The position numbers were made by a program, and so were the translations under genes. A stretch of DNA of 64,000 nucleotides from Nitrospirota bacterium (GTDB lineage Bacteria; Nitrospirota; Thermodesulfovibrionia; Thermodesulfovibrionales; JdFR-88), in contig JAJYJK010000007.1 of assembly GCA_021789555.1 (NCBI GenBank), forward strand, positions 1 through 64,000. The letters are read 5' to 3'. The notes beneath the pieces are model-generated. The model was not told where the DNA came from and ran no database searches. It saw nothing but the letters and a program-made list of their open reading frames with translations. Below are positions 1,879 to 11,861 of the stretch, one piece after another (the first letter of the stretch is position 1; each line of letters begins with the position of its first letter).

Positions 1879-4494
1879 ATGGCCGACGAGCAGAGACAGA
1901 TCCAAAACCGTATCGGGCGGCGCCTCCTGAAAAAGGTCCTCCTCTTCAGCTTCGTGGTGACGATTATTTTCACGGTCATCCAGGCATGGATGGACTACAG
2001 CATCCGGATGTCGGGCATCAACGAAACGATCGGGCAGGTCAAAAAAGTCCAGGTCAGAGGGCTTATCACCGCTCTCTGGAACTACGACATGCAGGAGCTC
2101 GCCGCCGAAGTCGAGGGGATACACCATTTCAATTATCTGAATTACGCGGCGGTCATCGACCGCGGCAAGTTGATCGCCCAGGCGGGGCAAAAGAAGCGGA
2201 AAAATGTCATCACGCGGGAAATAGCGCTCACGCGGGACTATAACGGCAGGCAAGTCATGCTCGGCACCCTCTACCTGCAGGCCGACACCGCCCTGGTGGT
2301 CCGTGACGTCCTTGCCAGGATTGCGCTTATCTTCCTGTTCCAGGCGGCGACGGTCGCCATTGTGGCGTTTTTTCTCCTGTGGCTGTTCGGGCGAATGGTC
2401 ACACGGCATCTCTCCATAGCCGCAAGCTATTTCCGCTCCTTCAACGTCGCCGGCATGAATGCCCCGCTCGTGCTCGACAAGCCGGCGAAAGACGATGAAC
2501 TGGACACCCTGGCCGGCGCTTTCAACATGATGCGCGAGCACCTTGCCGCCTCCTACCTGCAGCAGCTCTGCGCGCAGCAGGAAATCGAGGAGAGCGAGAG
2601 GCGGTTCCGCGTGCTGTTTGAGCAGGCGCCTGACGCCATCACCGTTTACGACCAGGACGAAAACCGGTTCGTTGACGCAAATGAAAACGCGGAGCGCCTC
2701 TTCGCGCTCAGCCGCGAGGAACTCTTGAAGACCGGTCCGCGGCAGATCTATCCCGACGCCCAGCCGGACGGCCGTTTAATCTCCGAGAGCATATCGGAGA
2801 ATATCAAGCTCACCCTTGCCGGGGAGTCGGTGGCCCTCGACAGGCTGATCCGGTGCGCCGACGGCAAAGAGCGCCTCTGCGAGGTGCGCCTTGTAAGGCT
2901 GCCCTCCGGGGAGCGAAGGCTGATCAGGGCCAGCTATATCGACGTGACCGAGCGCAGGCAGGCGGAAAAAGCCCTCTTCTACGCGGAGAAAAAATTCAGG
3001 GACCTCCTCGAGACCATCCAGCTCATAGCCGTCATGCTGGACTGCGACGGCAACGTCGTCTTCTGCAACGACTACTTCCTCGGCCTGACGGGATGGTCCA
3101 GGGACGAGGCGCTGGGCAACAACTGGTTCGATATGTTTTTGCCCGGTGAAAACAGGGAGACCGTGAAATCCGTCTTCAAATCCATCTTGCGGGACAATGC
3201 GCCCCTGCATTACGAAAACCCCATCGTCACCCGCGAGGGCGCCAAACGGCTCGTCATATGGGACAATTCCGTCTTGCGGAATTTCGGGGGCGACGTCATC
3301 GGCACCGCGAGCCTGGGCATCGACGTCACGGAGCACCGGAGGCTCGAAGAGCAGCTGCGCCAGGCCCAGAAGATGGAGGCCATCGGACAGCTGGCCGGCG
3401 GCGTGGCGCATGACTTCAACAATATCCTCTGCGCCATCGTGGGATACGCGCACCTGGCGCTCATGAAGATGCCGGAGGGCGATCCGGTCAGGGGCAACAT
3501 GGAACAGATACTCCGGGCGTCGGAGAGGGCGACCACGCTCACCAGGAGCCTGCTTTCATTCAGCAGGAAGCAGATCATCAACCCGAGGCCCAACAACCTG
3601 ACCGATATCATAAGGGGGCTTGAGAAATTCCTTTCGAGGCTGATCAGGGAAGACATCGAAATGAAGATCAAATGCGGCGAGGGCGATATGATGATCTTCG
3701 CCGACAGGGGGCAGATCGAACAGATGCTGATGAACCTCGTCACCAATGCCAGAGACGCCATGCCCGGGGGCGGGCATATAGCGATAGGTACAGTGAAGGT
3801 GCGCATGGATGAGGAATTCATAAGGATGCACGGCTACGGGAAGCCCGGCGCATACGCCGCTATCGTCGTCTCGGACACGGGCGAGGGGATGGACGCAAAG
3901 ACGAAGGAAAGGATATTCGAGCCCTTCTTTACAACGAGGGAGCAGGGGAAGGGCACCGGCCTCGGGCTCTCCATGGTCTACGGCATAGTGAAGCAGCATG
4001 AGGGCTTTATCGACGTGGACAGCGAACAGGGGAAAGGGGCGGAGTTCAGGATTTACCTGCCGCTTGTAAGCGCCGCCGTCCCGGACAGGCAAAGGGACAT
4101 AAGGCTGCCCGAGGCGGAGGGGGGGGTTGAGACGCTGCTCGTTGCGGAGGACGATGAGGCGATAAGGCAACTGAACACCGAACTGCTGCGGAATTACGGC
4201 TACAGGATAATCGAGGCGGTCGACGGCGAGGACGCGGTCGCCAAATTCAGGCAGAACATGGATGACGTGCAACTCATTATCATGGACGGCATCATGCCCA
4301 AGAAAAACGGGAAAGAGGCGTATGAGGAGATACGGGCGATAAACCCCTCGGTAAGGGTGATCTATTTGAGCGGCTACGCGGAGGACATCATCAGCAGGGA
4401 GGGCCTGCTCGAACCGGGGACAAATTTTATCCTGAAACCCGTCACGCCCGCGAACCTGCTGAAGAAGGTGAGGGAGGTGCTGGACGGGGACTAA
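1879..4494 (+). CDS. Hybrid sensor histidine kinase (sensor-HAMP-PAS-PAS-HisKA-HATPase-REC)
   Basis: LAGGVAHDFNNIL H-box, DTGEGMD / GTGLGLSMVYGIVKQHEG ATPase boxes, C-terminal receiver (LLVAEDDEAIR, IIMDGIMPKKNG). Confidence 0.93.
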   Translation: MADEQRQIQNRIGRRLLKKVLLFSFVVTIIFTVIQAWMDYSIRMSGINETIGQVKKVQVRGLITALWNYDMQELAAEVEGIHHFNYLNYAAVIDRGKLIAQAGQKKRKNVITREIALTRDYNGRQVMLGTLYLQADTALVVRDVLARIALIFLFQAATVAIVAFFLLWLFGRMVTRHLSIAASYFRSFNVAGMNAPLVLDKPAKDDELDTLAGAFNMMREHLAASYLQQLCAQQEIEESERRFRVLFEQAPDAITVYDQDENRFVDANENAERLFALSREELLKTGPRQIYPDAQPDGRLISESISENIKLTLAGESVALDRLIRCADGKERLCEVRLVRLPSGERRLIRASYIDVTERRQAEKALFYAEKKFRDLLETIQLIAVMLDCDGNVVFCNDYFLGLTGWSRDEALGNNWFDMFLPGENRETVKSVFKSILRDNAPLHYENPIVTREGAKRLVIWDNSVLRNFGGDVIGTASLGIDVTEHRRLEEQLRQAQKMEAIGQLAGGVAHDFNNILCAIVGYAHLALMKMPEGDPVRGNMEQILRASERATTLTRSLLSFSRKQIINPRPNNLTDIIRGLEKFLSRLIREDIEMKIKCGEGDMMIFADRGQIEQMLMNLVTNARDAMPGGGHIAIGTVKVRMDEEFIRMHGYGKPGAYAAIVVSDTGEGMDAKTKERIFEPFFTTREQGKGTGLGLSMVYGIVKQHEGFIDVDSEQGKGAEFRIYLPLVSAAVPDRQRDIRLPEAEGGVETLLVAEDDEAIRQLNTELLRNYGYRIIEAVDGEDAVAKFRQNMDDVQLIIMDGIMPKKNGKEAYEEIRAINPSVRVIYLSGYAEDIISREGLLEPGTNFILKPVTPANLLKKVREVLDGD

Positions 4495-5233: not shown

Positions 5234-5377
5234 CCGTAAGTATAACCCAAGCCCGGCGCCGGAAGATACCTCAGCCCCGCCCGATAGTCGGGCAGGGAAA
5301 GTTACTGTATAATTTGGCTGGGAGGGCCGTCTTTCCCCCGATTGTCCGGATTTTCAATGACGAAAGGAGCAACTGGC

Positions 5378-5854
5378 ATGAAAAGACCGGCCGAAAAGAC
5401 CGAGGATTTTTTGAACCTGATGGTGGACTGGCAGGCGACCGAGTACCAGATGATCGAATACGCGGGCAGGGAGGCCCCGAAGACCAAAATCCCCCTCATA
5501 AAGACCATGCTGCATGCGATGGAGTTTGAGGCAAAAAAGCGCTGCCTCATACAGCAGATGCTCATCGAGAGCGTCAAGAAAGAGGCGGTAAACCTGGACC
5601 CCGAGGACCTGCAGGCGCTCTCGGCCCATTTGAACCGCCAGATAGAGGCGGAGGAAAAGGCCCTCCCCCTGGCGGAGGCGGCGCTCGAAAAAAGCGAACT
5701 CTTCATGCCGCGCTTCCTGCTTTCATACCTCGTCTCGGAATTGAAGAAGGAAAACAGCCTCCTGAGACAGTTTGAAGACGAGGTCAAGGGCGCGGCGATT
5801 TCGACCTCGGCCGGCTCAAAGCTATTTGATTCCGGCAAAACGGGGGCTCTCTGA
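5378..5854 (+). CDS. Conserved hypothetical helical protein (possible ferritin-like fold)
   Basis: ORF with good RBS (aaaggag) upstream of internal ATG 5378; helical Glu/His-rich sequence; family not recognised. Confidence 0.55.
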   Translation: MKRPAEKTEDFLNLMVDWQATEYQMIEYAGREAPKTKIPLIKTMLHAMEFEAKKRCLIQQMLIESVKKEAVNLDPEDLQALSAHLNRQIEAEEKALPLAEAALEKSELFMPRFLLSYLVSELKKENSLLRQFEDEVKGAAISTSAGSKLFDSGKTGAL

Positions 5855-5922: not shown

Positions 5923-7083
5923 ATGCGATACTCGAGTGTTGCCCTTTCCGTGCCTTTCAGCAAATTGAACCTCTTCATCGAAGAGCTCGGCCTCACCGCG
6001 TCCGAACTCGCGGTCCTCGAACCCTACAAGGGGCTCTTCGGCGAAAAGGCGCGTGAATTTGCCGGCTATTTCTACGATGTCTTCACGGGCATAAGCGATA
6101 CCAGGAAGATCATCGAGCAGCTTGAAAACCCTCAGATGCTCAAAAACGACTGGGCCAACTGGTTCAGGACGGTCTTCACACTCGAACTGGACGAGAATTT
6201 AATGGCGTATCTGTGGAAGATAGGCATAAGGCACGTGGAGGTCAATCTGGACCAGCGTTACACGAACCTGGGTTTCTCGATGGTGAGGAAGTTCTGCGGG
6301 CGGATAATCCGGAGCGATGTGCCGGCGGAAGACCAGATAAAGGTCTCCTCCGTCATAGACAGGATACTGGATTTCTGCCTGCTCACCGAGACCAGCGCGT
6401 ACATAGACGCCACGAGCCGCTGCGACCTGGAGATCATAAAGGGCATCGCAGACCGGATAAGAAACCCCATAACCATAATAGGGGGCAATTTAAGAAGGAT
6501 CCAAAAACTACTCGACGTAAAAGACCCCTCGTACTGCGTCGTGGAAGACATCATCGCCCAAAGTTCCAGATGCGAGACCATGGTGGCGGACATCAGGACA
6601 TACGTCGAGATGTTCCAGAAAGAGGCCTACCCCGTAAAGATATCTCTTCCGGACCTGGTAAAACTCGTGCTTGAGGAGCTTGCGGAAAAGGCGAAAGCGG
6701 CCGGGATAGCGATAGAGACCGGCATAGACCCCCGGACAGGCTCCATCGAGGCGGACCCCCCGGACATCAAGACCGCGTTCTATCGGGTAGTGGAAAACGC
6801 CATCGAGGCCGCGGCCGAGTCCCCGGGACCGAGGGTCACCATCACATCGGAGCCCTACCGGGCCCCCTTTAACGCCGTAAAGATAACCATCTTCAACACC
6901 GGCGTGCCGCCCCGCCCCGAAGAGGTGGAGCGGATGTTCTCCCTCTTTTACTCCACCAAGCCCGGCGGCTCCGGCCTGGGCCTGCCCATAGCCCGTCTGG
7001 CAATAAAAAAGAGCTTCGGCAGGCTCGCCCTCGAGCCCGTCGCCGAGGGCACACGGGCGGTGATAGTCCTTCCAAAAGGATGA
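5923..7083 (+). CDS. Protoglobin-domain sensor with degenerate histidine kinase module
   Basis: Protoglobin pattern IGIRHVEVNLDQRYTNLGFSMVRKFC; HATPase boxes VVENAIEAA, FYSTKPGGSGLGLPIAR; H-box reads GIADRIRNPITIIGG. Confidence 0.8.
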   Translation: MRYSSVALSVPFSKLNLFIEELGLTASELAVLEPYKGLFGEKAREFAGYFYDVFTGISDTRKIIEQLENPQMLKNDWANWFRTVFTLELDENLMAYLWKIGIRHVEVNLDQRYTNLGFSMVRKFCGRIIRSDVPAEDQIKVSSVIDRILDFCLLTETSAYIDATSRCDLEIIKGIADRIRNPITIIGGNLRRIQKLLDVKDPSYCVVEDIIAQSSRCETMVADIRTYVEMFQKEAYPVKISLPDLVKLVLEELAEKAKAAGIAIETGIDPRTGSIEADPPDIKTAFYRVVENAIEAAAESPGPRVTITSEPYRAPFNAVKITIFNTGVPPRPEEVERMFSLFYSTKPGGSGLGLPIARLAIKKSFGRLALEPVAEGTRAVIVLPKG

Positions 7084-10080: not shown

Positions 10081-11298
10081 ATGGGTTTTGCTTCGCTGAA
10101 ACCGGACGTTTACTGGGTCGGTGCGATAGACTGGGCGATAAGGGATTTCCACGGGTACATAACCCCGAAGGGCTCCACATACAACAACTACCTCATCCTG
10201 GACGAGGAGCCAACCCTCATCGACGGCGTGAAGCTCGAATTCGTCGACGAATCGATAGGCAATATCAAATCCCTGATAGAGCCGGCCAGGATAAAACACC
10301 TTGTCGTAAACCACATAGAGCCGGACCACGGCGGTGGCCTCTCAAGGCTCCTGGCCCTCATGCCGAAGGCGACCGTCTACTGCACGCAGAAGGGAAAGGA
10401 GGGGCTTTCCCGCTACCATGACATCTCCGGCTGGGACATCAAGGTCGTAAAGACAGGCGAGCGGCTGAAGATCGGCAGGCGGACCCTTCAGTTCATAGAG
10501 ACCCCGATGGTCCACTGGCCGGACTCGATGATGACTCTCTGCCTGGAAGAGGGGATACTCTTCAGCCAGGACGGCTTCGGGCAGCACCTTGCAAGCTCCC
10601 AGCGCTTCGATGACGAGTTCGTGGCCTGCGCCTCGGAGGCGGAGATCGAGGACTCGGTCTGGGACTATTACGCCAATATCCTGATGCCCTTTGGCGGCAT
10701 CATAAAAAACAAGATAGAGGAGATAAGCAAACTTGGCGTTCCGATAGGCATGATAGCCCCGGACCACGGGGTCATATGGAGGAAGAGGCCGGAAAAAGTC
10801 CTGGGCATGTACCTGGACATGGCAAACGGCAAGGCGGACGAGCGGGTGGTCATCATCTACGATACGATGTGGGGGGGCACCGCCCGCATGGCCCAGCCGA
10901 TAATGGAGGGGCTCAAGGACGAGGGGATGGACACGAGGGTCATGAAGCTGAGGGCGACCCCGCTGTCGGTAGCGATAAAGGAATTCTGGCGGGCGCGGGG
11001 CTGCCTTCTGGGCTCCCCTACCCTGAACAATAACCTCTTCCCCTATGTAGGCGAGTTCCTCATATATCTGAAGGGCCTCAGACCCAAGGACCGCATCGTG
11101 AGCGCCTTCGGCAGCTACGGCTGGGCCGGCGGGGCCGTGAAGCTGGCGATGGAAGAGTTCAGGAACATGAAGCTGGAGGTCTATCCGGAGACGCCCACCG
11201 TGAATTACCGCCCGAACCCCGAGGAGCAGCGGGCCTGTTATGAGTTCGGGCAAAAGTTCGCCCGCGCCACAAGGGAGTTCCACAAGAGGTTTTTGTGA
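10081..11298 (+). CDS. A-type flavoprotein (flavodiiron protein, FprA family)
   Basis: Diiron site HIEPDH, H in TPMVHWPDSM, D in SQDGFG, H in APDHGVIW; C-terminal flavodoxin domain VVIIYDTMWGGTARMAQ. Confidence 0.95.
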   Translation: MGFASLKPDVYWVGAIDWAIRDFHGYITPKGSTYNNYLILDEEPTLIDGVKLEFVDESIGNIKSLIEPARIKHLVVNHIEPDHGGGLSRLLALMPKATVYCTQKGKEGLSRYHDISGWDIKVVKTGERLKIGRRTLQFIETPMVHWPDSMMTLCLEEGILFSQDGFGQHLASSQRFDDEFVACASEAEIEDSVWDYYANILMPFGGIIKNKIEEISKLGVPIGMIAPDHGVIWRKRPEKVLGMYLDMANGKADERVVIIYDTMWGGTARMAQPIMEGLKDEGMDTRVMKLRATPLSVAIKEFWRARGCLLGSPTLNNNLFPYVGEFLIYLKGLRPKDRIVSAFGSYGWAGGAVKLAMEEFRNMKLEVYPETPTVNYRPNPEEQRACYEFGQKFARATREFHKRFL

Positions 11299-11861
11299 GG
11301 ACTGCCGTCTTCATGGGGAGCCCCAGAAAGGGGGGCAACACCCAGATACTGCTGGACGAGGCGATGCGCGGGGCAAGGGAGAAAGGGGCGGAGATCGCCT
11401 ATTTCGACTTGAACAACATGAAAATCGGTGGCTGCCAGGACTGCGGGGTCTGCGCCGAAACCTGCTGCTGCCATATAAATGACGACATGCAGCTTGTATA
11501 TCAGGCCATAAGGGAGTCCTACAGGTTCATCCTGGCCTCTCCCATATTCTTCGCGGGCGTCAGCGCCCAGGCAAAGGCGATGATAGACAGGTGCCAGCCA
11601 TTCTGGTGCGAAAAGTACCTGCTTAAAAGGCCCATCCCTCCGGAGGGGAGGGCCGGGCTCTTCATAACCGTGGGCGGGATGAAGAAGGCCGAAGGCAGGG
11701 ACTGCTCTTTTGCGACCGCAAGGAGTTTCTTCAGGACGATAAGCGTCCTTGAGCATCGGGAGCTATGCCAGCTTGGGGTGGACGCCAGGGGCGAGATATT
11801 AAAGCACCCCGAGGCCCTGAAAGAGGCTTACGAGGCCGGAAAGACCCTTATGGAGCCTTAG
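11295..11861 (+). CDS. NADPH-dependent FMN reductase / flavodoxin family protein
   Basis: MRTAVFMGSPRKGGNTQILLDEAM; overlaps flavodiiron stop by 4 bp. Confidence 0.9.
   Translation: MRTAVFMGSPRKGGNTQILLDEAMRGAREKGAEIAYFDLNNMKIGGCQDCGVCAETCCCHINDDMQLVYQAIRESYRFILASPIFFAGVSAQAKAMIDRCQPFWCEKYLLKRPIPPEGRAGLFITVGGMKKAEGRDCSFATARSFFRTISVLEHRELCQLGVDARGEILKHPEALKEAYEAGKTLMEP

Follow-up and report, generated by a model that had tools for sequence, protein, structure and literature searches.

An aspartate-box transmitter coupled to a protoglobin domain in a Nitrospirota bacterium, and the family of histidine-kinase-like proteins that share it

The window analyzed here, a stretch of 64,000 nucleotides from a Nitrospirota bacterium, encodes a soluble protein of 386 aa in which a protoglobin domain precedes a module of the histidine kinase (HK) type, and in which aspartate occupies the position of the phospho-acceptor histidine. 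The locus raises the question of what a transmitter of this kind can do for the cell, and whether the substitution belongs to this protein or to a larger group.

Domains, predicted fold and altered boxes

The first-pass annotation of the locus had described a protoglobin-coupled, HK-like protein, and Pfam matches bore this out. The sensor domain scored 49.4 bits against PF11563, for which the curated cutoff is 25, and HATPase_c (PF02518) matched aa 278-385 with 49.4 bits (cutoff 26.4); the HisKA (PF00512) match at aa 171-227 reached 25.6 bits, just under the cutoff of 26.9. NCBIfam holds no named family for the protein, only general histidine-kinase models that scored far below their cutoffs. 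An AlphaFold2 model with 26 homologues as input (mean pLDDT 88) contained globin helices, a linker helix, a two-helix DHp hairpin and a CA fold, and its Foldseek matches included ZraS, DivL, HK853, RetS and the CA domain of ThkA. By protoglobin homology the protein would bind heme, with H104 as the predicted proximal ligand; Y51, which by eye falls at distal position B10, is variable among homologues (Y, H, F, T, R or N). The protein is probably a heme-based gas sensor joined to an HK-type module. Coordinates of all features are given in Table 1.

Table 1. Coordinates, in the window, of the protoglobin Asp-box gene, its functional positions and neighboring genes.
Feature	Position	Strand	Basis
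Protoglobin - Asp-box HisKA-like - HATPase_c protein, 386 aa, ATG start	5923-7083	+	ORF, Pfam, AlphaFold2
Protoglobin sensor domain, aa 18-162	5974-6408	+	PF11563 49.4 bits, E 6.8e-13; PDB 2w31 globin match
H104, predicted proximal heme ligand	6232-6234	+	Sole His of the protein; invariant in 28/28 homologues
DHp-like helical hairpin, aa 168-196 and 202-232	6424-6618	+	HisKA match below cutoff; helices in model
Asp box A176-D177-R178-I179-R180-N181-P182, replacing A-H-E-I-R-N-P	6448-6468	+	Sequence, alignments
GAC codon of D177, phospho-acceptor position	6451-6453	+	Aligned with same-genome HKs and ThkA
N181 (H+4), phosphatase-specific Asn/Thr position of HisKA	6463-6465	+	Invariant in protoglobin clade; function of position from PMC3510030
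CA (ATP-binding) domain, aa 241-385	6643-7077	+	HATPase_c; ThkA CA domain 3a0t match, rmsd 1.8
N-box R288-V-V-E-N292, lacking the first Asn but not the second	6784-6798	+	Alignments
G1 box N325-T-G327, with the Asn of ThkA in place of Asp	6895-6903	+	Alignments
G2 box G-S-G-L-G, intact	6967-6981	+	Sequence
Upstream helical protein, ~158 aa	5378-5854 (also listed as 5342-5854)	+	Without Pfam match
Flavodiiron gene	10081-11298		
Flavin reductase gene	11295-11861		

The H-box of the window protein reads GIADRIRNPITIIGG and aligned without gaps to that of ThkA (VAHEIRNPITIIGG). Among solved structures, ThkA of Thermotoga maritima (PDB 3a0r/3a0t) is nearest to the transmitter in sequence (E 1.6e-23 and 1e-35). 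The two proteins share the run RNPITIIGG after the acceptor position and the Asn of the G1 box. In ThkA, however, the acceptor site is His-Glu and the N-box is complete, neither of which holds for the window protein. The annotation had also read the acceptor codon as GAC and the DHp-like helices as free of any other His, and both readings were confirmed: H104 is the single His of the protein, so a His-phosphate in its transmitter is impossible. AfGcHK (Anaeromyxobacter) and NmpU (Myxococcus xanthus) are likewise cytoplasmic proteins with a protoglobin or globin sensor and an HK module, but they autophosphorylate, whereas the window protein lacks both the acceptor His, which gas-dependent autophosphorylation of globin-coupled HKs calls for, and the acidic neighbor that accompanies it in HisKA kinases; D177-R178 stands there instead. 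The transmitter part is very probably kinase-dead, as the annotation had concluded for His autophosphorylation.

Within the CA domain the reading of the boxes had to be revised in part. The N-box, described as intact, is not: of the two Asn of HisKA kinases the first is R288, and among 28 homologues that position is H, Q, Y, R, E or C in 27 and N once, while N292 is invariant. The G2 box is intact as annotated. The G1 box does read NTGVP where DxGxG is usual, but taken alone this is weak evidence for a dead site, since ThkA, with NSGPP and the same G1 Asn, was crystallized with ADP and Mg (3a0t), and the change is thus no argument against nucleotide binding. We infer that the CA domain probably binds nucleotide.

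Conservation and gene neighborhood

Of 177 genomes in the order, 28 encoded protoglobin Asp-box homologues, as did a single genome from a different order of the class, and all homologues read carried A-D-[RKM]-[IV]-R-N. Orthologues with His in the H-box, which the annotation had named as the case that would speak against it, were seen neither in the order nor in the sampled phylum: the acceptor was Asp in all 28 aligned homologues and His in none. Invariant among these 28 were H104, the linker pair C167-D168, A176, D177, R180 and N181, and the residue at +1 in the clade was R, K or M, never acidic. A peptide-pattern scan of genome contigs, using patterns from the window protein only and thus picking up close relatives alone, returned five such relatives in named records, all of them Nitrospirae MAGs. 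No plasmid-borne relatives of the protoglobin protein were found, and the Asp-box motif strings were not found in the literature searched.

Estimates of dN/dS were well below 1 throughout the protein and lowest in the DHp; between the window gene and L018, dN was 0.058 in the DHp, 0.257 in the protoglobin domain and 0.205 in the CA domain. It is extremely improbable that the gene is a decaying or non-functional copy, or that its Asp results from a sequencing or assembly error. One homologue (G101) is indeed split by a frameshift, but the Asp recurs in every homologue and across many families, the predicted fold is of high confidence, and a local error or pseudogene was rejected on conservation and dN/dS. 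The break in that homologue (G101:C21:8838-9987; L041, L043) lies within the DHp, and its Asp box is still legible. Judged from the alignments, the His-to-Asp swap is a maintained function rather than a broken copy, because the same swap is fixed across a family of related signaling proteins with many different sensors.

No constant neighbor of the protoglobin Asp-box gene was found across families, and neither a response regulator nor any other partner consistently accompanies it, as expected if the protein acts on receivers in trans. In several relatives from the same family the upstream helical protein is likewise encoded beside the protoglobin gene; it was rejected as an HPt partner, having no conserved His. 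The flavodiiron and flavin reductase genes that the annotation had linked to the sensor are real. Their synteny is confined to one family and minus-strand genes intervene, and they were rejected as a general output. The window also encodes, at 1879-4494, a hybrid kinase (CHASE5-PAS-HisKA-HATPase-REC) whose His is normal (VAHDFNNI).

A wider family of Asp-box transmitters

What the annotation missed, as far as the compared sequences tell, is that the same Asp box is common to a much larger transmitter family. Of the ~50 HK-like proteins of this genome whose sequences were read, only the window protein and L008 had Asp at the acceptor. The latter (L008:1420-2703, minus strand) is a second Asp-box transmitter of 427 aa with a membrane N-terminus, ALRVADRVRNPA. 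Another HK-like protein of this genome (L141, C54:44045-44374) has Gln at the acceptor in the alignment (VSQEFKDP). At E < 1e-25 the L008 family was matched in 35 of 101 genomes from the order, its box was A-D-[RKN]-[VI]-R-N-P in 20/20 members read, and the Asp box was found in 44/44 sister-family modules. In a joint-profile search of the phylum the top scores belonged to Asp-box modules, from the window's order and another family of the class, while the weakest Asp-box scores overlapped those of ordinary kinases, so that the two are told apart by the box as read; the four best-scoring hits read from outside the class had His at the acceptor.

Sensors in the sister family comprised Tll0287-like, dCache-HAMP, REC, REC-PAS and triple PAS domains and membrane segments. 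Against the HisKA profile these proteins scored lower than the window protein or gave no match. Members with a receiver domain at the N-terminus of an Asp-box transmitter are L254:4719-5858 (minus strand) and L247:4252-5541, and REC-fused members retain, by eye, the receiver's acidic pair, acceptor Asp and Lys. At L238:4773-7872, and similarly at L237, L240-L242, L249 and L250, an Asp-box transmitter lies beside VTT-domain and Band_7/SPFH (slipin-like) proteins in a recurring gene group, to which an NfeD-like protein (named by eye) is added in some genomes.

The G1, F and G2 boxes of the sister family are intact and its first N-box position is mostly His (HxxxN), a form shared with two proteins of this genome that by eye are CheA-like. 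These features would suit a CheA-like kinase acting in trans, whose CA domain phosphorylates the His of a separate phosphotransfer protein. We consider this improbable: in the protoglobin clade the first N-box position varies freely, as if released from catalysis, and the neighboring conserved helical protein offers no conserved His.

Over 70 Asp-box modules the acceptor was Asp in 70/70 and +3 was Arg in 70/70. Asn stood at +4 in 69/70, as the Asn/Thr expected of HisKA phosphatases and as in N181, and the residue at +1 was Arg or Lys in 64 and acidic in none; the pair of acceptor His and acidic neighbor that marks HisKA kinases thus occurred in 0/70. The invariance of the Asp, and the replacement by a basic residue of the His-activating acid, which would be superfluous for a carboxylate, could mean that D177 is itself a phospho-acceptor forming an ATP-dependent aspartyl phosphate. 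This is a very remote prospect, since the first position of the N-box is variable in the protoglobin clade, and we know of no precedent for an aspartyl phosphate on a DHp.

In the tree each Asp family formed one clade and the two families grouped together (SH-aLRT 91), and His-bearing protoglobin kinases from another family of the phylum branched apart from the Asp clades. With the H-box and N-box columns removed the joint Asp clade was retained with a support of 61, a drop that leaves room for convergence. A single origin of the Asp box is the interpretation we favor on this topology, short of a demonstration.

Output of a transmitter without an acceptor histidine

In these proteins the kinase-specific residues (His and the acid at +1) are lost and the phosphatase-specific Asn at +4 is retained. 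Kinase activity of CrdS from M. xanthus depends on the His and on the +1 acid, whereas its phosphatase activity does not need them, or only mildly so (PMC3510030). The half-life of CrdA~P, 53.5 min alone, was 2.6 min with CrdS H371A and 0.4 min with E372A, whereas with N375A (+4) phosphatase activity was lost and the half-life was 47.6 min (PMC3510030). The Asn at H+4 of the HisKA phosphatase motif (CrdS, HK853, EnvZ) occurs in the window protein too, where the motif is predicted from sequence. The residue pattern suggests a transmitter without autophosphorylation that would retain receiver docking and water placement. The annotation had listed a phosphatase, a heterodimer partner and an ATP-binding regulator without choosing; the pattern favors a phosphatase or receiver docking.

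We tentatively prefer the explanation that the window protein is a gas-responsive, nucleotide-binding, kinase-dead transmitter acting on receivers, most likely as a dedicated phosphatase, and with similar caution we take phosphatase activity to be its main output. A cytoplasmic heme-gas sensor (O2, NO or CO) would control the kinase-dead HK-type transmitter. Gas binding at the H104 heme would shift the long linker helix into the DHp hairpin and move the CA domain, in which nucleotide would serve as a conformational effector with no phosphorylation of the protein. The DHp would then dock a receiver domain encoded elsewhere in the genome and strip its phosphate; we infer both activities for the window protein. 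N181 would place the water and D177 would possibly be the acidic partner in a DxxxN pair spaced as in the DxxxQ phosphatases CheZ and NarX, where Asp and amide are likewise four apart. Here, though, the Asp takes the His position itself, and it counts against the pairing that the acid of NarX lies one residue later than D177.

A further hypothesis, which we regard as unlikely, makes the invariant Asp catalytic: in a class-restricted, multi-sensor Asp-box family, the change from His to Asp would have made a bifunctional kinase either a dedicated DxxxN phosphatase or, more radically, a kinase of its own aspartate. Sensor inputs under this hypothesis, held with the same doubt, would be protoglobin, Tll0287-like, Cache, PAS and receiver domains.

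A DivL/RetS-like allosteric pseudokinase, which binds a phosphorylated receiver or heterodimerizes with an HK and alters its partner without catalysis, has to be weighed more seriously. DivL, the best-studied precedent, has Tyr for His and neither kinase nor phosphatase activity, and it senses DivK~P. The protein of Caulobacter resembles the window protein in that the whole transmitter is retained, the acceptor residue is other than His throughout orthologues, and Arg stands at +3; it differs in having Tyr and a PAS sensor where the window protein has Asp and a protoglobin, and the window protein is no DivL orthologue, ThkA and not DivL being its closest solved sequence relative. DivL retains Thr at +4 and yet has no phosphatase activity, so that Asn or Thr at +4 is no proof of a phosphatase. 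It stabilizes DivK~P, and its +3 Arg (R553) is required to bind DivK~P (PMC4211667). Phosphatase activity is also lost in PleC H610A and diminished in HK853 H260A. Together with DivL these His mutants bring the allosteric alternative almost level with the dedicated phosphatase. That alternative, a plausible one though still short of our preference, further draws on the ChrS/HrrS pair, in which HKs heterodimerize and the inactive partner has an effect, on DivL and RetS among the PDB structural matches of the model, on the DHp as the most conserved part of the protein, and on the N-terminal receiver domain of some sister-family members. It also counts against a phosphatase that R180 and N181 might be retained for fold or docking alone. 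Against the allosteric alternative, an invariant Asp with an almost invariant +4 Asn is more specific than docking requires, and Magnetospirillum DivL has Ala at the His position, whereas the acceptor of the Asp-box modules does not vary.

Pseudo-histidine-kinases have mostly been described one at a time, as with DivL. For these bacteria the Asp-box proteins are a warning that counting genes by HATPase_c gives too many working kinases. The Asp-box family makes it testable what the acceptor position does when phospho-His is impossible. With one fixed substitution, several swappable sensors and no conserved receiver partner next to the protoglobin genes, it would demonstrate large-scale re-use of the two-component transmitter as a non-kinase output.
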